Shown: piece by piece, positions 5,827-32,429 of the stretch
Numbering within the stretch: position 1 is the first letter of the stretch
How the letters are laid out: each line of letters starts with the position of its first letter
Source: Clostridia bacterium
GTDB lineage: Bacteria; Bacillota; Clostridia; Oscillospirales; Acutalibacteraceae
Direction of reading: 5' to 3'
Length of the DNA: 64,000 nt
Assembly (NCBI GenBank): GCA_017403185.1
Contig: JAFQON010000019.1
Location: forward strand, 1 to 64,000
The notes under the pieces: generated by a model
The model's input: only the letters and a program-made list of their open reading frames with translations
Told to the model about the DNA's origin: nothing
The model's database searches: none
Translations under genes and position numbers: made by a program

Positions 5827-5913
5827 CACTTATTTTGAAAAAAATTCAGTTTTTTCAAAATTCATAATATTTGCACAAAAATTCATACCGCACGGGCATA
5901 TAAATTATGATTT

Positions 5914-5953
5914 GTCATTCCGAGCTAAACGGGCGGATGATATCCGCCCCTAC
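5914..5953. repeat. Hybrid R1/R3 repeat fragment
   Basis: It begins like the R1 element end (GTCATTCCGAGCTAAAC) and runs into an R3 palindrome (GGGCGGAT with ATCCGCCC, then CCTAC). The rest of 5827-6051 shows nothing gene-like. Confidence 0.55.
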
Positions 5954-9820: not shown

Positions 9821-9828
9821 TGATATTT

Positions 9829-9920
9829 GTCATTCTGAGCAAAGCGAAGAATCTCAGCCCACGGCGGAATTATTTCTGCGTTTCATTTTACCTGAGATCC
9901 TTCGCTGCGTTCAGGATGAC
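9829..9920 (-). repeat. R1 palindromic element, copy A
   Basis: 92 bp with ends GTCATTCTGAGC and GTTCAGGATGAC. Its reverse complement aligns end to end with the copies at 25978 and 26461, including the internal CTCAGGTAAA and AACGCAGAAA motifs. It is a small mobile-element-like repeat without coding capacity. Confidence 0.8.
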
Positions 9921-9947
9921 AATTTACAATAATTTACGGTCACAAAT

Positions 9948-23393: not shown

Positions 23394-24697
23394 TGAAAAG
23401 ATTATTTAATATTTTATTTATAGTAACATTTATATTATGTACCTTCAGTTCGTGTATGCCGAAGCTCAGCGATGAGTATGCGCAGGAGCTGCAGGCTCAG
23501 GCTCAGGCATTTGATTATGCCGATGCGGCGCAGCGTATCAGTGACGGCACGGGTGTCGGCATGACCGCTGATTTTCTTGAAACCCTCGGCGAAGAAACTG
23601 CGCAGGCATTGCTCAATGAAATTGACAGCGGAGCATACACCGAGCTTTCCTGGTTGAGGCTGACGGGTTATTCCCGCCATGTTATCGCCGATATGATTTC
23701 GGGCAATATCAATGCCGATAATGTTGCCGATTTCGGCAATAACGGCAGTGACAGCTTCACGGTATCGTTTGTGGGGGATATTCTTTTTGACCCCGATTTC
23801 AGACCTATGGTGCACGCATCGCAGATGGGCGGAGTGCTCAACTGTATTGACAGCGCCGTTGTGGATTATCTTAAATCATCGGATGTTTTTCTTATAAACA
23901 ACGAGTTTTCGCTCGGTGACAGAGGGGCGCCGCTGCCGGGCAAGACATGGACCTTTCAGGTTGACCCCGCAAGGCTTTCGCTTTATGAGGATATGGGTGT
24001 TGACATCGTGTCGCTTGCCAATAACCATGTGTATGACTACGGCATCGAGGGCTTTGAGGATACTTTAAAGTATCTTGATGAAGCGGGAATTCCCCGAGTG
24101 GGCGCAGGCATGGACCTTGGCGAGGCTGCTGAGGGATATTATTTCATCGTCAACGGCATAAAGGTCGGTATTGTTGCCGCAAGCTGTGCGGAGAAAAAAT
24201 TCTTCACTCCCGTTGCAACCGAAACAGAGCCGGGCGTTATGGGCACCTATGACACAACTGAATTCATCAAGGCAATCAAGGCGGCGGATTCTCAGTGCGA
24301 TGTGCTTGTTGCCTATGTGCATTGGGGCACTGAAAACACCACCGTGCTTGATGAGGAGCAGAAATCCTTTGCCCGTGAATATATTGATGCGGGCGTTGAT
24401 GCCGTTATCGGCGGTCATACCCACTGCCTTCAGGGCATGGAATTCTACAACGGCAAGCCGATAGTTTACAGCGTGGGCAATTTCTGGTTTAACAGCAAGA
24501 GCCTTGATTCCTGCGTTATTACCCTCAGAATTGATAAAGAATTAAAAACAGAAGCCTTCATCGTACCCCTTGAGCAAAAGGGATGCGAAACAAGGCTTCT
24601 GACAGAGGACTCAGAGAGAAGGGCTTTGTTTGACAGGGTTGAGAGCTATGAGCCGCAGGGCGTAAGCATAGCCGATGACGGACTCATTACTCCTTAA
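23393..24697 (+). CDS. CapA-family lipoprotein (metallophosphatase fold)
   Basis: 434 residues. Signal peptide MKRLFNILFIVTFILCTFSSC with a lipobox Cys at residue 21. A helical linker region (about 30-115) precedes the PGA_cap domain: FTVSFVGDILFD, FLINNEFSL, VDIVSLANNHVYDYG, VAYVHWGTENT, VIGGHTHCLQGMEFYNGKPIV (in part) and YSVGNFWF. Metal-binding His/Asp/Asn residues of the calcineurin-like fold are in place. CapA/PgsA proteins take part in poly-gamma-glutamate or cell-envelope polymer handling at the outer membrane face. No pgsB or pgsC lies nearby. The start overlaps the previous stop (TAATG) and the end overlaps the convergent MGMT gene by 4 bases. Confidence 0.9.
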   Translation: MKRLFNILFIVTFILCTFSSCMPKLSDEYAQELQAQAQAFDYADAAQRISDGTGVGMTADFLETLGEETAQALLNEIDSGAYTELSWLRLTGYSRHVIADMISGNINADNVADFGNNGSDSFTVSFVGDILFDPDFRPMVHASQMGGVLNCIDSAVVDYLKSSDVFLINNEFSLGDRGAPLPGKTWTFQVDPARLSLYEDMGVDIVSLANNHVYDYGIEGFEDTLKYLDEAGIPRVGAGMDLGEAAEGYYFIVNGIKVGIVAASCAEKKFFTPVATETEPGVMGTYDTTEFIKAIKAADSQCDVLVAYVHWGTENTTVLDEEQKSFAREYIDAGVDAVIGGHTHCLQGMEFYNGKPIVYSVGNFWFNSKSLDSCVITLRIDKELKTEAFIVPLEQKGCETRLLTEDSERRALFDRVESYEPQGVSIADDGLITP

Positions 24698-25002
24698 TCT
24701 CCGAGCCACGCATATTTTTTCATGTCGACGCTGCCGTCGGGCAGGAATTCAATTCCTTCCTCACTCAGCAGCAAACGCTGCATATTTTCGCCGCCGAAGG
24801 CGAATGCGGGTGAAACGCAGCCGTCTTTTGTCACCACTCTGTGGCAGGGGATTGCAACCGGCTCAGGGTTAACATGAAGTGCATACCCCACAACTCTTGC
24901 CCATCGGGGGTTGCCTGCCATAGCGGCAACGGTGCCGTAGCTTGCAACCTTCCCCTTGGGTATTCTTTTTACAACTGCATAGATTTTTTCAAATGTATTC
25001 AT
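24694..25002 (-). CDS. MGMT-family DNA-binding domain protein
   Basis: 102 residues, only the C-terminal domain of O6-alkylguanine-DNA alkyltransferases: FEKIYAVVKRIPKGKVASYG, AGNPRWARVVGYALHVNP and IPCHRVVTKDG. The Cys at residue 53 is the alkyl acceptor. Short alkyltransferase-like (ATL) proteins usually replace it with Trp or Ala; here it is kept, so direct alkyl transfer is possible without the N-terminal domain. Either repair or lesion recognition is possible. Confidence 0.9.
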   Translation of the reverse strand: MNTFEKIYAVVKRIPKGKVASYGTVAAMAGNPRWARVVGYALHVNPEPVAIPCHRVVTKDGCVSPAFAFGGENMQRLLLSEEGIEFLPDGSVDMKKYAWLGD

Positions 25003-25035
25003 AATATCACCTACCCTGACAAATACAGACCCACG

Positions 25036-25153
25036 GTAGGGGCGGATATCATCCGCCCGCCGTAAGCTGAGATTCTTCGCATACGCTCAGAATGACAAAG
25101 TTTTAATAATTTACAGTCACAATTCGTAGGGGAGGCGTTTCGCCTCCCGCACA
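25036..25153. repeat. Two R3 palindromes flanking a half R1 element
   Basis: 25036-25060 is GTAGGGG plus GGCGGAT/ATCCGCC. 25068-25096 is one R1 end (GATTCTTCGCATACGCTCAG and AATGAC). 25126-25153 is CGTAGG plus GGAGGCG/CGCCTCC. The 25003-25269 gap holds nothing else recognisable apart from AT-rich DNA before the HAD gene. Confidence 0.7.
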
Positions 25154-25269
25154 TAATCAGTGTCGCAAACCCTTAATGCACGAAGTGCAAATCATGCAAA
25201 CACGGTTTTCAATTCATGCCGCAAGGCAATTATATATAATATAATATCAAACTTTAAAGAGGATTTCAA

Positions 25270-25905
25270 ATGGTAAAGTATACACATATTATCTGGGATT
25301 GGAACGGCACATTGCTCAACGATATATCAGCATCACTCGCAAGCGTCAACGATATGCTTGCAATGCGGGGCAAGCCGCCGATTGATGTTGATTTTTACAG
25401 GGAGTGCATCGGCGTGCCTATCAGAAAGTTTTATGAGAAAACATTTGATATGGAAAAAGAGGATTATTCCGTGCTCATAGAGCAGTATAACGAGGGTTAT
25501 CTGCGCCATCTCAGCTCCTGCAGGCTGACTGATGGCGTGGTTGAGGTTGTTGATTATTTCAACAAAAACGGAGTGAAACAGGCGATAATTTCGTCGTCAA
25601 ACAACGCTCAGCTTATACAAAATGTTACAAAATACGGAATATTTGACCGATTTGATGCAGTGCTCGGCGCAGAGGATTTTTTGGCGGGTTCGAAGATTGA
25701 ACGGGCTGAAAATTACCTCAGACACAGCGGCGGAGAGAGCAGGGTTCTTGTTGTCGGTGATATTGAGCACGATGCCGAAATGGCGCATAAGCTCGGTGCG
25801 GATTGCGTGCTTCTGACGAGCGGTCATGAAAACCGTGAACGCCTTTATGCCGCAGATGCAAAAGTTATTTGCGATGTGAGGGAACTGATCACCTTGGCGG
25901 AGTGA
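25270..25905 (+). CDS. HAD-family phosphatase (phosphoglycolate phosphatase-like)
   Basis: 211 residues. HAD motif I is IWDWNGTLLND (nucleophile Asp at about residue 10, with Asn at the +2 position, a known variant in this subfamily). Motif II is AIISSSN, motif III has the Lys in LAGSKIERAEN, and motif IV is VLVVGDIEHDAEMA. A small helical cap lies between about 15 and 85. It should dephosphorylate a small phosphorylated metabolite; substrate unknown. AAAGAGG precedes the ATG. Confidence 0.88.
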   Translation: MVKYTHIIWDWNGTLLNDISASLASVNDMLAMRGKPPIDVDFYRECIGVPIRKFYEKTFDMEKEDYSVLIEQYNEGYLRHLSSCRLTDGVVEVVDYFNKNGVKQAIISSSNNAQLIQNVTKYGIFDRFDAVLGAEDFLAGSKIERAENYLRHSGGESRVLVVGDIEHDAEMAHKLGADCVLLTSGHENRERLYAADAKVICDVRELITLAE

Positions 25906-25932
25906 GCAAAGTGACGCCGTCAACTTGCACAA

Positions 25933-26075
25933 ACCAACCCCGCTGCTTGTCATCCCGAAAAATCAAAACCACTGCTTGTCATCCTGAACGAAGTGAAGGA
26001 TCTCAGGTAAATTGAGACGCAGAAACCGTGTTGCATAGGGCAGAGATTCTTCGCATACGCTCAGAATGACAAAAT
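25933..26075 (+). repeat. 143-bp direct repeat, left of the GIY-YIG gene
   Basis: It starts ACCAACCCCGCTGCTTGTCA and contains a complete R1 element at 25978-26070. It matches 26415-26558 in the same orientation, with few differences. The shared part extends beyond R1 itself (GTCATCCCGAAAAATCAAAA is in both). Confidence 0.85.
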
Positions 26076-26106
26076 TGGTTAGGATCAAAACAAAAGAGAG
26101 GTGCGC

Positions 26107-26394
26107 ATGAAAAATAATTATTATGTCTACATAATGACCAACAAAAACAACCAGGTAATGTATGTTGGGGTAACCAACGATATATACAGACGAGTTGAAG
26201 AACATAAAGCCAAAAAGATAGACGGATTCACCAAAAAATACAATGTGACAAAATTGGTTTATTGCGAATCAACAGCGTATGTGGAAAATGCAATAGAATG
26301 GGAGAAAAAAATCAAAGGATGGACACGAGCAAAGAAAAACGCATTGGTCGAGAGTTTGAATCCTGAGTGGAAAGATTTGTCTGAAGAGTGGTGA
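26107..26394 (+). CDS. Single-domain GIY-YIG nuclease
   Basis: 95 residues from the ATG at 26107. The GIY-YIG core is NNYYVYIMTNKNNQVMYVGV (GIY to YVYI, YIG to YVG), then NDIYRRVEEHK with the catalytic Arg. The metal-binding Glu follows in NAIEWEKKIKGWTRAKK, and the end is LNPEWKDLSEEW. This is the UrvC-like, UPF0213-type small nuclease family. It cuts DNA with one metal ion; the biological role of the stand-alone proteins is poorly known. There is no DNA-binding module. The gene is enclosed by two nearly identical 143-bp direct repeats, like cargo of a mobile unit. AGAGAGGTG precedes the ATG. Confidence 0.92.
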   Translation: MKNNYYVYIMTNKNNQVMYVGVTNDIYRRVEEHKAKKIDGFTKKYNVTKLVYCESTAYVENAIEWEKKIKGWTRAKKNALVESLNPEWKDLSEEW

Positions 26395-26414
26395 AATATG
26401 CTTTTGATTCAAAC

Positions 26415-26558
26415 ACCAACCCCGCTGTTTGTCATCCCGAAAAATCAAAACCAACTGCTTGTCATCCTGAACGAAGTGAAGGATCTCAGGTAAATTGAAA
26501 CGCAGAAACTGTGCTGCAGACAGCAGAGATTCTTCGCATACGCTCAGAATGACAAAAT
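26415..26558 (+). repeat. 144-bp direct repeat, right of the GIY-YIG gene
   Basis: It starts 20 bases after the nuclease stop with ACCAACCCCGCTGTTTGTCA and contains an R1 element at 26461-26553. It matches the left copy at 25933-26075. Confidence 0.85.
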
Positions 26559-26589
26559 GGATAACAAGTCAACTCTGCCGTCATATTGC

Positions 26590-26639
26590 ACAAAGCGGTT
26601 AAAAAATGTTTATTAAAACTGCACAAAAAACCGCTTTGT
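26590..26639. repeat. Inverted repeat near the giant gene's promoter
   Basis: ACAAAGCGGTT (26590-26600) and AACCGCTTTGT (26629-26639) are perfect 11-bp inverted repeats 28 bases apart. The right arm overlaps the candidate -35 box at 26636, so it could be an operator. It could also end upstream transcription. Confidence 0.5.
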
Positions 26640-26664
26640 TAATAGTTTGTTCATAAATTATTTA
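26636..26664 (+). promoter_or_regulatory. Candidate promoter of the giant secreted protein
   Basis: TTGTTA and TATTTA are separated by 17 bases, a moderate match. It would give a 5' leader of about 145 bases that contains the hairpins at 26730-26789. Confidence 0.4.
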
Positions 26665-26729
26665 CGAAAAATTAATTTTGTCACACGGAGAATGCAACAT
26701 CTTCCTTATAAATTAATTAATGTAAGTTA

Positions 26730-26789
26730 GGGGCATTGGTCTATGCCCCATTCAGAGACCTTATTTGCAGAGGTCTCGGCACGAAAGTG
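26730..26789 (+). promoter_or_regulatory. Structured 5' leader of the giant gene
   Basis: Three consecutive hairpins: GGGGCAT/ATGCCCC (26730-26749), GAGACCT/AGGTCTC (26755-26777) and CAC-GAAA-GTG (26780-26789, a GNRA tetraloop). They end 13 bases before GGAGGTG. No known riboswitch class was recognised. Confidence 0.5.
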
Positions 26790-26815
26790 TTGTAATTTTT
26801 ATGGAGGTGCAAAAT

Positions 26816-29800
26816 ATGAAAAAGGCAAAACGACTTTTGGCAGTTCTTCTTGCTTCGTTGATGCTTTTCACCGCCGCAAGTGTACCCTCTTATGCGTACA
26901 TTTCAGGTGACAACTGGCATGTAGCGAACGATACAGGTGACCAGAAGTACTACTTCGACTACGCCCAGGGCGCATCGTGGGTTCTCGATTTCCTCGATGA
27001 TATGCTTCTTGATTTGGGTGTATGTATCAACTGTGACGAGCTTAACGAACTCGTTGACATCGGCATTAACATCTTCACATCAAACGTCTTTTTGAACACT
27101 GATGCGAGATTGGAAGAAGCCGGCTGTGTAGATGAAACCGGTCAGGGTGCACTTGACCTCCGCTCCGTTGACAACCTCATCAAATCGCTCTACGGTCTTC
27201 TTGATAACCTCAACGACCGAATTGTAGACCTTATAGATAATGCGCTTGTTAAGAGCTTTTTCGACGTTCTCGGTGATCTTCTTGACACTGAAAAGGGTCT
27301 TCAGATGACTGGTCTTGACCCTAAAAAGCTCAGAGGCAACGGTGTTACTTCTGACAGGGAAGTTCTTGAGATGCTTGTTCTTTGGATTACTAATCAGAAG
27401 GGCTTGCTTCGTGCAATCCTTGGCAACGATTTCAACTGGGGTTCACTTCTCCCCGACCTTATAGGTGGTCTTATCAACGATTTGCTTGATCCCGTACAGG
27501 TTGAATTTGACGGTAACAATAAGCTCAACACCAACAAGCTTATCAAAGACCTTCTCTACAATTTGCTTATCGACTCAACGGCTGCTTCCGCTCCCGCAAA
27601 CGATGCGAATACTCCCGAAGATGAGTCATCTATTGACAGTTGGGTTCAGCATCTTATCGATATGCTCGTTATCACCGGTACAGGCGACGGTTCACAGGAA
27701 GACGACAACCTCACACACCCCGTATACGGTGACGGCGCAAACTCAATACTCGGCGCAGACGCAAAACCCCTCATGTCCGCAGTAGGTCAGTTTGAAGGCG
27801 GCGCATCAATCACGGGCATCAGCGTTTACCAGTTTGTTAACAATATTATCAACGGTCTCTTCGGCGGCACTCTTAAGGACCTCCTTGCAGACCTTCTCTA
27901 TGATCTTCTTGAGATTGAAATTACACCCGAGCATCCCTACGGTGACCCCGCAGTTCTTCAGGATCAGACCTTCACAATGATCGTAGGTATCGTTGAAGGC
28001 CTCTTCGTTGATAACGGTGCTCCCGCTCCCAGCTATACAGATGAAGAGAACTCCAAGCCCACCCTCAAGGTTGATGCTCTTCTTGACTGGCTCCTTGTAG
28101 GTGACCCCGCAAACGGTGTTGACTCAGCTCTCGATACCTTCCTTCTTATCGACTATTACGGCTTCCACATTCAGGATAACTTCATGTCACTCCTTAATGA
28201 CGTTGCCCGTCTTCTTATCAACCTTCTTCCCTCACTCGGTCTCTTCGCAGATTCAGCTCACCTTGCATACACTCCCGATGAGCTCACAGTTTCATACTAT
28301 ATTGATGAAAACTTCAATCTCGTTGATTCAAACAGTGAGTCAAAGGTTACTCAGACTTATGTAACATACGAAACAAACGAAATTGTTTATCCCACAGAGT
28401 TTATTACTGACGCTAACAATGCTCTCGTTCCCGTTGCATATTGCTACCTTGATGACAAATCAGCTGTTAACACAACAGACGCAACGGCTGCTGATTACAT
28501 GAACCCCTCGCTTATCAGACCCAACTATGTAATCACAACCAAGATGGTATTTGCAAACATCATCAAGCTTGCAATCAACGACTTCATCGACGGCTGCTAC
28601 TTCCCCGAGTGGACTACCGATATTCCTTCGGTTCTTGCTTACGGCTTCGCAGCTATGGCAGCTCCCGTTGTTCCCGAAAACAACTACTATGCACGCCTTG
28701 ATGCTTATTATCAGTATCTCCAGGGCGGAGTTGCTCCCCTTGACGGCACAGATACAATCCAGACTGCAAACGGTGATGAGCTTGATATTCTCCGTTATTC
28801 AATCTATAAGGTTATCACAGTCAAGGATATCAACGGCAATGTTGCAGGCACAGCCAATGTTGAAATCCCCAAGGCTGCTCTTGACATCATCGCTTCATTC
28901 GGCGCAAAGAGACTCAACGGTGTGTTCCACTTCGACACTGATGTTGAAAAGTTCACAACAGACACAACCTTTGAGCGCTTCCTCGGCGAATTCCTTCTCT
29001 GGGCCGTAACTCAGTACATGCCCGCATTCGTAGGTGAAGCAACCAAGAAATCTGACGGAAAAACTCAGTTCATTGGTAACAATGATAACACAGACAAGGC
29101 TCCTATCTTTGCTTCCACATTGGAAACCTATGTAAATACTATTTACAATAATTATGAAGACTATATAGCAAGAAAGCCCAAGGTAGAGGCAAACTGGGAT
29201 GCTGTTTATGATCTTGTTGACGGCACACTCTTCAAGCTTCTTCCCACATCATGGCTGCCCCATATCAACGGTTCAGCTCAGTTCATTAATCAGTGGCTTC
29301 TTGAAAACCTCATCAACTTCAACCTTCAGGGTATTCTCAACCTCTTCCAGGTAAATGAAGATCCCAGTGCTGAACTTAATAACTCACTTGTTAAGGTTAT
29401 CATCAATGTTCTTGACCGTGTTCTCGCTCTTGTATTCAACGACAACGGCGTTATGATCACAAGCGGTAAGACAACAAACAGAACAGGCGTTGTTATGAAC
29501 AACGATGTAACAACACTTTCAACACTTGCAGGTCTTCTTGACTGCTCGAGCAAAGACGCATCTGTTCCTATGCTTGTCTATAACCTTCTCAACCTTCTCA
29601 ATGTTTATAAGGCCCCTCTTCTCGGAACAATTCTTCCCCTCATCCTCGGCGGTGAGTACATTAAGCCCTATTCAAACGCTTACGGAACAAAGGATAATGT
29701 TACAACATTCTTCCCCAACGGCGCAGCAGACCTCAAGAAATACAAGATTGCTGACCTTGAAAACTATATGTCAGATCTTTATGACCACACCAACGCATAT

Positions 29801-32290
29801 TGCATCAAGGAACTTGATTCTCTTGATGATGCAGAGGCTGCACTTGCTCAGGGTGAAGATAAGCCCATGGCTATCAAGAATGCTGACGGCGTTCGCACCG
29901 ATATCCTTCTCAGCACAGGTAACACCTTCGGCACATACGCATCTCGTGACGAAGCAAACCAGGTTCTTGAGCTTCTTAAGAATTCCTATATCCACGAAGA
30001 GCTTGTAAATGAAGCAACAGGCACCTATAAGTATCATATCTATACAAATGAGAGCTATCTCACATCGGCGAACGGAACTCCCGCTTCCGATGATGCAGGT
30101 GATTATACTAAGTATTCAGACTTCAGCTTCTCACAGCTCACCTACAGAACAATAGCCGATCCTTTGGTAAGCTATGATGATGACTACAGATTCTTCCAAT
30201 ATGAAGACTTCGGCAAGTCAGGCTTCCTTTACAACAACCACAAGGATGCTGTTGACGGCGGTCATGAATTCGTTGACAGCTACTACAGCTTTGTTGAAAA
30301 TGACCTTGTAAATGCCTATGGTGAATGGTACATGTACTTCATCGAGTCACAGCTTAAGTCACAGTCACTTCTTGACACCAACGGCGACGGTGTAGGTAAT
30401 GCGGACGACGGCGAACCTTCAATCCCCACAGCAATGTATCCCTACGCAACAACAGCTGCAACTCAGTTAAAATACTATGATGTTGATGCCTACACACTCA
30501 GTGATTACGACTATGACACAAGAACAAAGGATGGCTTTATTGATTCTGATTCAGGCACAGTAATTACAGACCATACAATGGCTTCGTTCAATGCTGAGAA
30601 CTTCGAGCAGCTTGCTCTTGCTCTTGAGTACGCAGCTGAAACAGATGCAGATGGCAAGCCCATCCATAATGTTGTTCTTTCAGATGAAGATGCAGAAAGT
30701 GTTGTAAGACTTGCTATCGGTTCACTTAATTTCGATATCACAAGAAACGGTGACGGTGAATTCAACGGTCCCATGCAGTGGGAACACCTTGTTGCTGACT
30801 CAACCAACATGGGCAAGCTCAACACATGGTGCGCAAACAACGGCTTTACCTTCACAACAACAACTGCTGAAGACGGCTCAACCGTTTATCAGCTTGCACG
30901 CCCTGCATTTGCACTCATTGGTGATACAACCTTCTCTTACTCAAACATTTCAACTATTCCCGAACTCGACTTTGAGCTGATCATGGAATATATTGATCAT
31001 GCAATCGACAGCACTCAGACCTACGGCGAAGAGCTTGTAATTGCAATCCATCAGGGTTACTTTGAATACATCAAGGCACTTTACGCTAACCGTAATCAGC
31101 TCCTTGATGAAATCGACGAACTTTCATGGCGTGTTGAAAATGCTGAAAACGGCAGAAAGTCAACCGGCGATCCTACAGTTCTTAAGTGGGTTCTTGACCT
31201 TGTTGCTGATGATTATAAGAATCCTCAGACAAGAAAGCGCAACATCACTTATATCCAGGATGAAAACGGCAACAATGTTGAATCAAAGCAGTTCACAACA
31301 TCCTCCTACACCAAATTCAGAAACGCATATGACTTTGCAAATGATCTCTATGATGCAGTATCGGATGCAAACATCCTCGCTTCCGGTATCACTCAGTCAA
31401 TGATCACTGCTGCATATCAGGGCCTTCTTGAGGCTTGGATGGCACTCGTTGAGTTCACGGGCTTCGCAGACTGGACACAGATTCATTACTACATCACAAT
31501 AGCTGAAGAAATCCTTAACGATCCCTATGTTCAGAGCAATGACCCCGATTTCGGTGTAGCATCAGGTCTTACAGAGCTTGAAGCAGCTCTCAAAGACGCA
31601 TATGTTTATGCTGATAACCATGATAATCCTGAGACAGCATACGACCTCAATAAGAACAGCGAGAGCAAATACGATTCAGAAAACAACGATGATATCTATG
31701 CAGCAGCAGCTCTTCTTAATCAGGCTATCCAGAGCCTTGTTTACAACAAGATTCCTTCGATCCTTCCCGATCCCGACGGAACTAATGTAAAGATTCAGGA
31801 TACAAAGTATGAGAACCAGATTCAGTATGCTCACATCTACGGTCTTACAGAAGGCGTAGGCTTCGGCGACGGTTCGCTTGAAATTGATGATGTTCTTGAT
31901 ATGCTCGGTCTTAAGGTTACCGGTATTACAATCGACGGTGATACAGGTACAGTTACAAGATCTAACTCATCTTTTGGTTCAGGTACTAACGCAAGAATCG
32001 ACGGCCGTTATCAGAACTATCTGAGATTCAGATACTTCGCAGTTATTTACGGTGATATCAATGGTGATACCCGTATCGACAACACCGACGCATCAGCTCT
32101 CAGAATTTACATCTCCAAGAACGAAAACAAGGTAGCCGACATGGGCGAAGCCAGATTTGAGGCAGCCGATGTAACTCATGACGGCGGCGTTGACGTAGCG
32201 GATGTTCAGGCTATCGTTAACCACTATTCACTTGTTAAGGACGGCGAAATCAAACAGGATGAACACAGCCCCGTAGCAACAGTTGAGTAA
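26816..32290 (+). CDS. Giant secreted protein with C-terminal type I dockerin
   Basis: 1,824 residues from the ATG at 26816 (GGAGGTG upstream). Signal peptide MKKAKRLLAVLLASLMLFTA...SYA. The long body is rich in Leu/Asn/Asp with helical stretches such as LIKSLYGLLDNLNDRIVDLI and repeated LLIDLLxxLLG-like segments. No glycosidase, Ig or adhesin domain was recognised. The last about 75 residues hold two dockerin calcium loops: YGDINGDTRIDNTDASALRI and ADVTHDGGVDVADVQAIVNH. A dockerin docks onto a cohesin of a scaffoldin, so the protein probably joins a cellulosome-like or cell-surface assembly. Codon use is strongly biased to CTT/CTC, AAC, TTC and AAG, more than in the neighbours, which suggests high expression. 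Function of the body unknown. Confidence 0.85.
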   Translation: MKKAKRLLAVLLASLMLFTAASVPSYAYISGDNWHVANDTGDQKYYFDYAQGASWVLDFLDDMLLDLGVCINCDELNELVDIGINIFTSNVFLNTDARLEEAGCVDETGQGALDLRSVDNLIKSLYGLLDNLNDRIVDLIDNALVKSFFDVLGDLLDTEKGLQMTGLDPKKLRGNGVTSDREVLEMLVLWITNQKGLLRAILGNDFNWGSLLPDLIGGLINDLLDPVQVEFDGNNKLNTNKLIKDLLYNLLIDSTAASAPANDANTPEDESSIDSWVQHLIDMLVITGTGDGSQEDDNLTHPVYGDGANSILGADAKPLMSAVGQFEGGASITGISVYQFVNNIINGLFGGTLKDLLADLLYDLLEIEITPEHPYGDPAVLQDQTFTMIVGIVEGLFVDNGAPAPSYTDEENSKPTLKVDALLDWLLVGDPANGVDSALDTFLLIDYYGFHIQDNFMSLLNDVARLLINLLPSLGLFADSAHLAYTPDELTVSYYIDENFNLVDSNSESKVTQTYVTYETNEIVYPTEFITDANNALVPVAYCYLDDKSAVNTTDATAADYMNPSLIRPNYVITTKMVFANIIKLAINDFIDGCYFPEWTTDIPSVLAYGFAAMAAPVVPENNYYARLDAYYQYLQGGVAPLDGTDTIQTANGDELDILRYSIYKVITVKDINGNVAGTANVEIPKAALDIIASFGAKRLNGVFHFDTDVEKFTTDTTFERFLGEFLLWAVTQYMPAFVGEATKKSDGKTQFIGNNDNTDKAPIFASTLETYVNTIYNNYEDYIARKPKVEANWDAVYDLVDGTLFKLLPTSWLPHINGSAQFINQWLLENLINFNLQGILNLFQVNEDPSAELNNSLVKVIINVLDRVLALVFNDNGVMITSGKTTNRTGVVMNNDVTTLSTLAGLLDCSSKDASVPMLVYNLLNLLNVYKAPLLGTILPLILGGEYIKPYSNAYGTKDNVTTFFPNGAADLKKYKIADLENYMSDLYDHTNAYCIKELDSLDDAEAALAQGEDKPMAIKNADGVRTDILLSTGNTFGTYASRDEANQVLELLKNSYIHEELVNEATGTYKYHIYTNESYLTSANGTPASDDAGDYTKYSDFSFSQLTYRTIADPLVSYDDDYRFFQYEDFGKSGFLYNNHKDAVDGGHEFVDSYYSFVENDLVNAYGEWYMYFIESQLKSQSLLDTNGDGVGNADDGEPSIPTAMYPYATTAATQLKYYDVDAYTLSDYDYDTRTKDGFIDSDSGTVITDHTMASFNAENFEQLALALEYAAETDADGKPIHNVVLSDEDAESVVRLAIGSLNFDITRNGDGEFNGPMQWEHLVADSTNMGKLNTWCANNGFTFTTTTAEDGSTVYQLARPAFALIGDTTFSYSNISTIPELDFELIMEYIDHAIDSTQTYGEELVIAIHQGYFEYIKALYANRNQLLDEIDELSWRVENAENGRKSTGDPTVLKWVLDLVADDYKNPQTRKRNITYIQDENGNNVESKQFTTSSYTKFRNAYDFANDLYDAVSDANILASGITQSMITAAYQGLLEAWMALVEFTGFADWTQIHYYITIAEEILNDPYVQSNDPDFGVASGLTELEAALKDAYVYADNHDNPETAYDLNKNSESKYDSENNDDIYAAAALLNQAIQSLVYNKIPSILPDPDGTNVKIQDTKYENQIQYAHIYGLTEGVGFGDGSLEIDDVLDMLGLKVTGITIDGDTGTVTRSNSSFGSGTNARIDGRYQNYLRFRYFAVIYGDINGDTRIDNTDASALRIYISKNENKVADMGEARFEAADVTHDGGVDVADVQAIVNHYSLVKDGEIKQDEHSPVATVE

Positions 32291-32346: not shown

Positions 32347-32371
32347 TTTATTTAACATTGTTTTAAAATTT

Positions 32372-32396
32372 GTTATTCTGAGCAAAGCGAAGAATC
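32372..32396. repeat. Half R1 element
   Basis: GTTATTCTGAGCAAAGCGAA and then GAATC match one end of R1 (compare 9829). The other end is absent. Confidence 0.6.
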
Positions 32397-32429
32397 GCAC
32401 CACACGGCAGTAAAATATTATAAATTTAA

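Follow-up and report, generated by a model that had tools for sequence, protein, structure and literature searches.

A small GIY-YIG nuclease gene beside tagged hairpin repeats in many bacterial phyla, and its probable role as the enzyme of its own REP family

The nuclease gene and its flanking repeats

The stretch of DNA analysed here (the window, 64,000 nucleotides of a Clostridia bacterium) carries on its forward strand a gene for a single-domain GIY-YIG nuclease of 95 amino acids (26107..26394). The protein belongs to the GIY-YIG family, with a match to PF01541 over residues 4-77 (E = 1.1e-18, 67.7 bits vs. a curated cut-off of 22.6). An alignment of 50 sequences revealed 18 invariant columns: Y8, Y19, G21, R29, E66, and N85 were identical in 50/50 aligned relatives, and H33 and the motif K70-G71-W72-T73-R74 were conserved as well. 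We take the catalytic residues, for example Glu66, to be among the invariant ones. The Pfam search of the window protein yielded no second domain, only GIY-YIG and T5orf172, which is presumably also a GIY-YIG relative, and no match to the HUH tyrosine transposase that characterizes a RAYT. A group I intron homing endonuclease was rejected (TIGR01453, 23.6 bits vs. a cut-off of 56.05), and no Rfam match to a known RNA family was found in positions 24500-27000. Phage cargo was also rejected, as a scan of 50,697 phage records gave no nuclease match at E<=1e-8. The solved structures nearest by sequence were the small UPF0213 proteins 1zg2 and 1ywl, and also UvrC. The source genome (2.4 Mb, 80% complete) contained one nuclease of this subfamily; its other GIY-YIG match was a single 625-aa frame, probably UvrC judging from the length.

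Two direct repeats of 154 bp, located by pairwise alignment and repeat search, flank the gene on the forward strand (25928..26081 and 26410..26563). They were identical in 143 of 155 aligned columns (92%) with two gaps, and an ungapped core of 118 nt was 91% identical; the first-pass annotation had thus placed the gene correctly between direct repeats, and its term "near-identical" was slightly generous. Each copy contains a degenerate REP tag, TGTCATCCCGAAA (25948..25960 and 26430..26442, forward strand), followed by a full R1 element, as annotated. R1 (about 93 bp) is a dimer, an inverted pair of hairpins in which each half consists of TGTC, a 5-nt arm, GA, an inner stem, GA, the complementary arm, and CT. 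The two dimers found by pattern search (25977..26071 and 26460..26554, forward strand) were 94% identical over 96 nt. In the left dimer the first REP hairpin reads TGTC-ATCCT-GA-AC-gaa-GT-GA-AGGAT-CTC and the second, inverted hairpin reads TGTC-ATTCT-GA-GC..GC-GA-AGAAT-CTC. Both halves folded as a 5-bp stem, a GA/GA mismatch, and a 2-bp inner stem, and the TGTC tag stands at both outer ends of R1.

The dispersed copies that the annotation had listed were found in part. A further full dimer is present on the reverse strand at 9828..9921, next to the position 9829 given for it. Two single halves lie on the forward strand: an exact one of 30 nt at 25069..25098, absent at the matching place in the relative G145, and one of the ATTCT type at 32371..32398 with three mismatches to the degenerate 28-nt consensus. 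The half claimed at 5914 proved to be an isolated tag-like sequence of 13 nt, TGTCATTCCGAGC (5913..5925, forward strand), and not a full half. In the whole source genome the inverted-pair pattern occurred at 11 places vs. 0 for the reversed pattern, so R1 recurs beyond chance. Other R1 pairs (L002, L005, L006, L007) sit within larger repeated stretches and form composite mosaic elements, with GGGAGG or GGGCGG..CTACGAAT..AATTT before them and AAA[AT]T after.

Two further observations concern the surroundings of the cassette. An 18-nt near-repeat (25916-25933 and 26577-26594, GCCGTCA..TTGCACAAA, 89% identical) stands directly outside the flanking repeats and could be either a target duplication or a product of chance. 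Directly downstream lies a gene for an 1841-aa protein with a C-terminal dockerin domain (26765-32290); its counterpart in G145 follows closely on the site that has neither nuclease nor REPs.

Association of the nuclease with tagged hairpins across bacteria

Within the family sample the nuclease was detected in 7 of 150 genomes at E<=1e-8, the source genome included, and at the seven further family loci that were examined (L012-L018, six genomes) palindromes adjoined the gene by eye. The motif GTCAT[CT]N[CT]GA[AG] was derived from the family-sample loci and then scored on genomes of many phyla, where the test set comprised the best 80 of 543 relatives by protein similarity in named genomes. 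Of these 80 loci, 77 had the motif no more than 300 bp from the gene; without L043 and L075, duplicates of L018 and L013, the count was 75 of 78. Motif density fell from 7.43/kb over the first 200 bp to 2.84 and then 0.51 in the following two bins, and past 600 bp it was 0-0.36/kb. The three misses (L021, L034, L070) showed close variants by eye. At the class level 15 of 17 loci carried the motif, and the two others (L112, L116) have variants by eye. As controls served twelve lower-scoring GIY-YIG loci of the class search, eleven with small frames of 88-107 aa and one with a frame of 616 aa (L125); the motif was found in the flanks of 0/12. The first-pass annotation had drawn a parallel to REP/RAYT systems, in which a single-domain enzyme serves palindromes, and had predicted that R1 would lie near related genes more often than chance. 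The latter agrees with these counts; the former withstands this test and gains support from the covariation and coevolution described below.

The control small GIY-YIG genes are, by their size, putative members of UPF0213, with which we take the small GIY-YIG proteins YhbQ and YazA to be grouped. The UPF0213/YhbQ/YazA proteins resemble the nuclease in being small stand-alone GIY-YIG domains. In contrast, the control genes scored at most 60.7 bits against the subfamily profile, where members of the subfamily reached at least 99.9, and their flanks were devoid of the REP motif.

The association extends to distant groups. Matches at E<=1e-12 were obtained in 63 of 192 alphaproteobacterial genomes, although the best hit in 6 of the 63 was weak and control-like (about 55-61 bits). 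With a strict hairpin search, 22 of 30 alphaproteobacterial loci proved to have CGTC/TGTC-tagged repeats (e.g. TGTCATGCCCGGGCTTGACCCGGGCATCCA) no farther than 300 bp from the gene (21 of 29 once L132, a duplicate of L037, is dropped), and the hairpin density near the gene was 2.63/kb vs. 0.06-0.49/kb. Among the misses, six loci have variants by eye (L135, L139, L154, L156, L160, L161), L151 has a hairpin without the tag, and the flanks of L158 showed no REP variant by eye. For Chloroflexota together with one cyanobacterium, a hairpin or the motif was found in 26 of 30 loci (25 of 29 without a duplicate); in cyanobacteria the nuclease was present in 2 of 194 genomes at E<=1e-22. A plasmid collection contained 31 records with the nuclease, five of which were examined. 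REPs tagged CGTC or CCTC lay on both sides of the gene in four of them: A. lipoferum 4B, Rhizobium sp. CIAT894, and two records of chromosome size, those of S. meliloti and N. gonorrhoeae. R. tumorigenes had tagged REPs downstream only, from +204. On the plasmid AZO_p3 of Azospirillum lipoferum 4B (L193), nuclease and REPs are located between sufB and sufC of an iron-sulphur assembly cluster. The homologs L061, L087, and L225 contain an in-frame stop and still have adjoining REPs.

Across 334 units, GTC was preceded by T 285 times, by C 22 times, by G 20 times, and by A 7 times. At L182, in genome G652, the adjoining repeats are tagged GCTC instead of CGTC/TGTC, which suggests that even the tag can vary along with the enzyme.

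Inverted pairs were also far more frequent in genomes with the nuclease than in those without. In the family sample they occurred in 5 of 7 nuclease-bearing genomes vs. 5 of 143 others (Fisher p = 8e-6; 9e-5 without the source genome), and in the class sample, where nuclease-bearing meant a hit of at least 95 bits and which also includes the source genome, in 10 of 18 vs. 29 of 375 (p = 7e-7; 4e-6 without the source genome). Among nuclease-bearing genomes of mixed phyla, 11 of 12 had pairs, with 1-67 each. The reversed control pattern gave 0 in the family sample; in the class sample it occurred once in each of three genomes (G271, G359, G364). Equal abundance of R1 in genomes that lack the nuclease, which had been named as grounds for abandoning the link, was thus not observed; the link is nevertheless not exclusive, as REP-rich genomes without a detected nuclease exist. 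No nuclease was found at E<=0.01 in the family genomes G024 (40 pairs), G087 (8), and G037 (2); of the other REP-bearing genomes in the family, G139 had only a 639-aa frame and G109 a partial match of 32 residues. In the class sample, five genomes with 23-51 pairs (G213, G222, G237, G245, G392) gave no hit at E<=1e-10. These five and G024 may have lost the enzyme, may have an assembly gap at the repeats, or may use a different enzyme. Since the pattern is limited to inverted pairs of one spacing range, it misses the repeats beside the gene in G107 and G112. The presence and absence counts show that nuclease and REPs go together and yet can be separated; orphan REPs left behind by a lost enzyme would give such a picture.

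Hairpin pairing and covariation with the nuclease

The repeat forms a hairpin whose pairing is under selection. With one unit taken per locus, the exact closing arm was present in a mean of 58.7 of 77 loci, compared to 14.0 +/- 3.3 (maximum 24) when arms were permuted among the loci. Complementarity at the first two inner pairs was found in 52 of 69 vs. 24.7 permuted (maximum 38), and GA or GAA preceded the closing arm in 226 of the 238 units having such an arm. Longer hairpins with an extended inner stem were seen by eye at L050, L060, L088, and L095, and in the first three of these the stem-GA/GA-stem module seems to be repeated.

Hairpin architecture followed the phylogeny of the enzyme. 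On a tree of 132 nucleases, of which 90 were labelled GA mismatch, 20 continuous stem, and 22 remained unlabelled, the architecture changed 2 times vs. 18.5 times when labels were shuffled (minimum 13). Among the 25 labelled alphaproteobacterial loci there were 2 changes vs. 5.5 shuffled (minimum 3). Stem types, available for 116 of the 132 loci, were shuffled 1000 times within phyla only, with the family- and class-scan loci assigned to Bacillota. Clustering on the tree was strong for ATTCT (0 of 1000 shuffles as low), ATTTC (1), and ATCCT (4), weak for ATTCC (17) and ATTGC (33), and no phylogenetic signal was detected for ATCCC stems (537 of 1000).

The alignment columns most tied to stem type were residues 73 (z = 8.7), 71 (z = 7.7), and 18 (z = 7.4). 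In the GA-mismatch hairpins residue 73 agreed with stem base 5 in 83 of 86 loci, T, L, K, or I occurring with T and R or S with C; the exceptions were L028, L051, and L085, and four further loci had other residues. In the new Chloroflexota loci without continuous stems the agreement was 14 of 15 (exception L227), which is not a blind test since the base-5 rule was formulated after both sets. A three-rule prediction that was fixed before the new loci were scored was correct in 9 of 11 (p = 0.0012), or in 8 of 10 without the duplicate L200 (p = 0.0051). An independent-pairs test on the tree had at most three supported pairs to draw on, which is too few. From the genome G652, 10 divergent nucleases were examined, 8 of which lie beside strict tagged hairpins whose variants differ from gene to gene; at the two others (L175, L180) REP variants were recognized by eye only. 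Taken as sequence comparisons, these data make the putative recognition of its own REP hairpin by each nuclease a well supported proposition.

Arrangement, mobility and the proposed role

Repeat units occurred within 250 bp on both sides of the gene at 89 of the 132 loci, on one side at 33, and on neither at 10. In 52 of the 89 two-sided loci the gene lay between outward-tagged inverted hairpins (p = 2e-11 vs. one quarter), and this REP-nuclease-REP unit spans a median of 382 bp. The remaining orientations were -/+ in 17, +/+ in 12, and -/- in 8. The terminal inverted repeats of an insertion sequence or transposon would correspond to the outward-tagged arrangement; the hairpins nearest the gene in the window are of the -/+ kind.

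The gene may form a mobile cassette, as the first-pass annotation suggested. In the same-genus relative G145 the upstream genes, a HAD gene, and the start of the dockerin gene are syntenic, and the site measures about 190 bp vs. about 705 bp in the window, with nuclease and REPs absent. A nuclease hit in G145 was discarded because its frame contains stops; by eye it lies near a recombinase-like gene. Eight R1 copies were compared for a target duplication and showed none that was consistent, only short matches at differing offsets, and no near-identical second copy was found: 19 nuclease copies of three genomes (G652, G549, G623), out of 20 regions, were compared, none were near-identical, and their DNA was 65-73% identical where alignable. 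Recent transposition was therefore rejected; judged by this divergence, the within-genome copies are old and not recent jumps. The target duplication and near-identical copies of an insertion sequence or transposon were accordingly both lacking at the copies compared. Transfer by recombination between the direct repeats, the simpler alternative offered in the annotation, agrees with one case: in two Rhizobium plasmid regions of 95.6% identity (L229 and L230), about 260 bp of REP hairpins beside the nuclease are present in one and absent from the other, a difference consistent with recombination between direct REP units.

We consider it fairly probable that the gene encodes an enzyme dedicated to one REP family, its own; such a GIY-YIG "REPtron" would be similar to RAYT/REP systems, with an unrelated catalytic fold. 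Because the gene adjoins its own hairpin repeat and the two sequences track each other, the nuclease is probably that repeat family's enzyme, and it probably acts on a large repeat family for which no enzyme was believed to exist.

Other explanations draw on parts of the same data. I-TevI and its free-standing relatives are GIY-YIG homing endonucleases, with which the nuclease would share GIY-YIG catalysis and possibly sequence-specific cutting; unlike them, it has no second domain in Pfam and no Rfam match beside it, and what it targets seems to be a hairpin repeat. It is unlikely that the gene encodes a free-standing homing endonuclease which targets gene-less REP pairs and spreads itself, not the REPs. 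The recognition evidence (stem clustering, residue 73) would apply to this explanation equally, the 52 loci with outward-tagged REPs look as if the gene had been inserted in the spacer of a pair, and the syntenic relative lacks the insert. However, the gene in the window has a complete pair on either side and does not sit inside one, many pairs per genome (up to 67) are unoccupied, and the within-genome copies are old and stand beside different REPs.

It is also rather improbable that a domesticated enzyme trims or resolves REP hairpins or cruciforms at replication, with proximity due to co-inheritance. The conservation of the presumed catalytic residues in 50/50 relatives, the lack of recent mobility among 8 R1 and 19 nuclease copies, and the nearness in sequence to UPF0213 proteins and UvrC all accord with such a housekeeping function, but the patchy presence (7/150 family genomes, 2/194 cyanobacteria) and the different REP of each nuclease are a better fit to a selfish pair. 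Passive hitch-hiking, in which REP-rich intergenic regions are insertion hot spots and ordinary repeat recombination acts with no recognition, would account for the Rhizobium difference and the direct repeats in the window, but it deserves hardly any weight, since it leaves unexplained the same tag and hairpin in many phyla, the agreement of residue 73 with the stem, and the lack of the motif around the 12 control GIY-YIG genes.

For the dedicated enzyme of a REP family we propose a mechanism in four steps. The first two are very probable. As the association shows, the nuclease gene is kept inside or beside pairs of hairpin repeats tagged [CT]GTC; and, as the coevolution supports, the nuclease would recognize the hairpin formed by its cognate repeat. 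Residue 73, on the segment that follows the presumed catalytic Glu66, tracks the innermost of the five base pairs of the stem (T/L/K/I with T-A, R/S with C-G), and the hairpin shape would be given by the conserved GA/GA mismatch or, in the other clade, by an uninterrupted stem. The third step, which the invariant presumed catalytic residues make reasonably plausible, is a predicted cut at or beside the tag on extrusion of the hairpin in single-stranded or cruciform DNA, as might happen in the course of replication. The last and weakest step is dissemination. GIY-YIG enzymes are, to our knowledge, hydrolases without known strand transfer, so this step would need host repair or recombination at the cut, which might copy or move the repeat and sometimes the gene, with REPs as non-autonomous passengers of the nuclease; the flanking repeat copies would also permit loss of the gene by recombination. 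We put this step forward tentatively, by analogy with TnpA_REP as portrayed in the consulted part of PMC8266576.

Close parallels to the repeats have been described. In the passages of Di Nocera 2013 (PMC3733652) used here, CGTC-tagged REPs have a tag that can also be TGTC or CCTC, a stem beginning with AT, of 8-9 bp with a loop of 4-5 bp, and a CCA tail; the superfamily includes Neisseria dRS3, and A. lipoferum, S. meliloti, and N. gonorrhoeae are among the positive organisms named. The same passages report no association with a transposase gene, and these REPs seemingly lack a dedicated enzyme. Our repeats share with them the CGTC/TGTC/CCTC tag, the AT-starting stem, and head-to-head pairs, and many alphaproteobacterial loci also share the CCA tail and long stems. 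Window R1 has the unpaired tag and stems that begin with AT (ATCCT, ATTCT). Variants with GTCG or GTCAC occur elsewhere, and as the search motifs mostly required AT, its frequency there is not a free test. Unlike the CGTC superfamily as described, the repeats here flank a GIY-YIG nuclease, and window R1, likened to it by description and not by consensus, has a 5-bp stem, GA/GA, a 2-bp stem, and the tail CTC, with no 8-9 bp stem, 4-5 bp loop, or CCA tail.

The RAYT/TnpA_REP REPtrons and REPINs are alike in having a single-domain enzyme gene beside its own tagged palindromes, dispersed repeats, and inverted pairs. An enzyme flanked by its own REPs, with REPs dispersed in the genome, was found here as well (11 pairs; 77/80 loci), and conserved-mismatch or perfect hairpins are described for REPtron groups 2 and 3 in the part of PMC8266576 drawn on. 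They differ in that the catalytic domain here is GIY-YIG (PF01541) and not an HUH tyrosine transposase, and that the tag is [CT]GTC or CCTC and not GTAG. Enzymes with their own REPs are thus already known as a kind, and what appears to be new is this enzyme class with this repeat superfamily. No paper tying GIY-YIG to REPs was found among the matches listed in the open-access literature, preprints and most subscription papers being outside its scope; in that literature, GIY-YIG with "repetitive extragenic palindromic" gave no paper, and the matches of GIY-YIG with "repin" concerned mostly restriction enzymes by title.

Given the association and coevolution with hairpins of the CGTC type, this looks like a second kind of REPtron, in which REP hairpins are served by a GIY-YIG nuclease and not by a RAYT. 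The nuclease is a candidate enzyme for the CGTC-tagged repeats, including Neisseria dRS3, a point that PMC3733652, in the passages used, leaves open. A bolder version is possible, if somewhat doubtful: the GIY-YIG family of about 90 aa may be the missing enzyme of the whole CGTC/TGTC REP superfamily, with a stem code at residue 73, the REP-nuclease-REP unit of about 0.38 kb may be among the smallest autonomous mobile elements, and gene-less pairs may be its non-autonomous forms. The agreement between residue 73 and the stem base predicts specificity swaps. If the proposal is true, enzyme-served REPs would have arisen on at least two occasions, from nuclease folds unrelated to each other, and the widespread plain annotation "GIY-YIG nuclease family protein" would gain a function.
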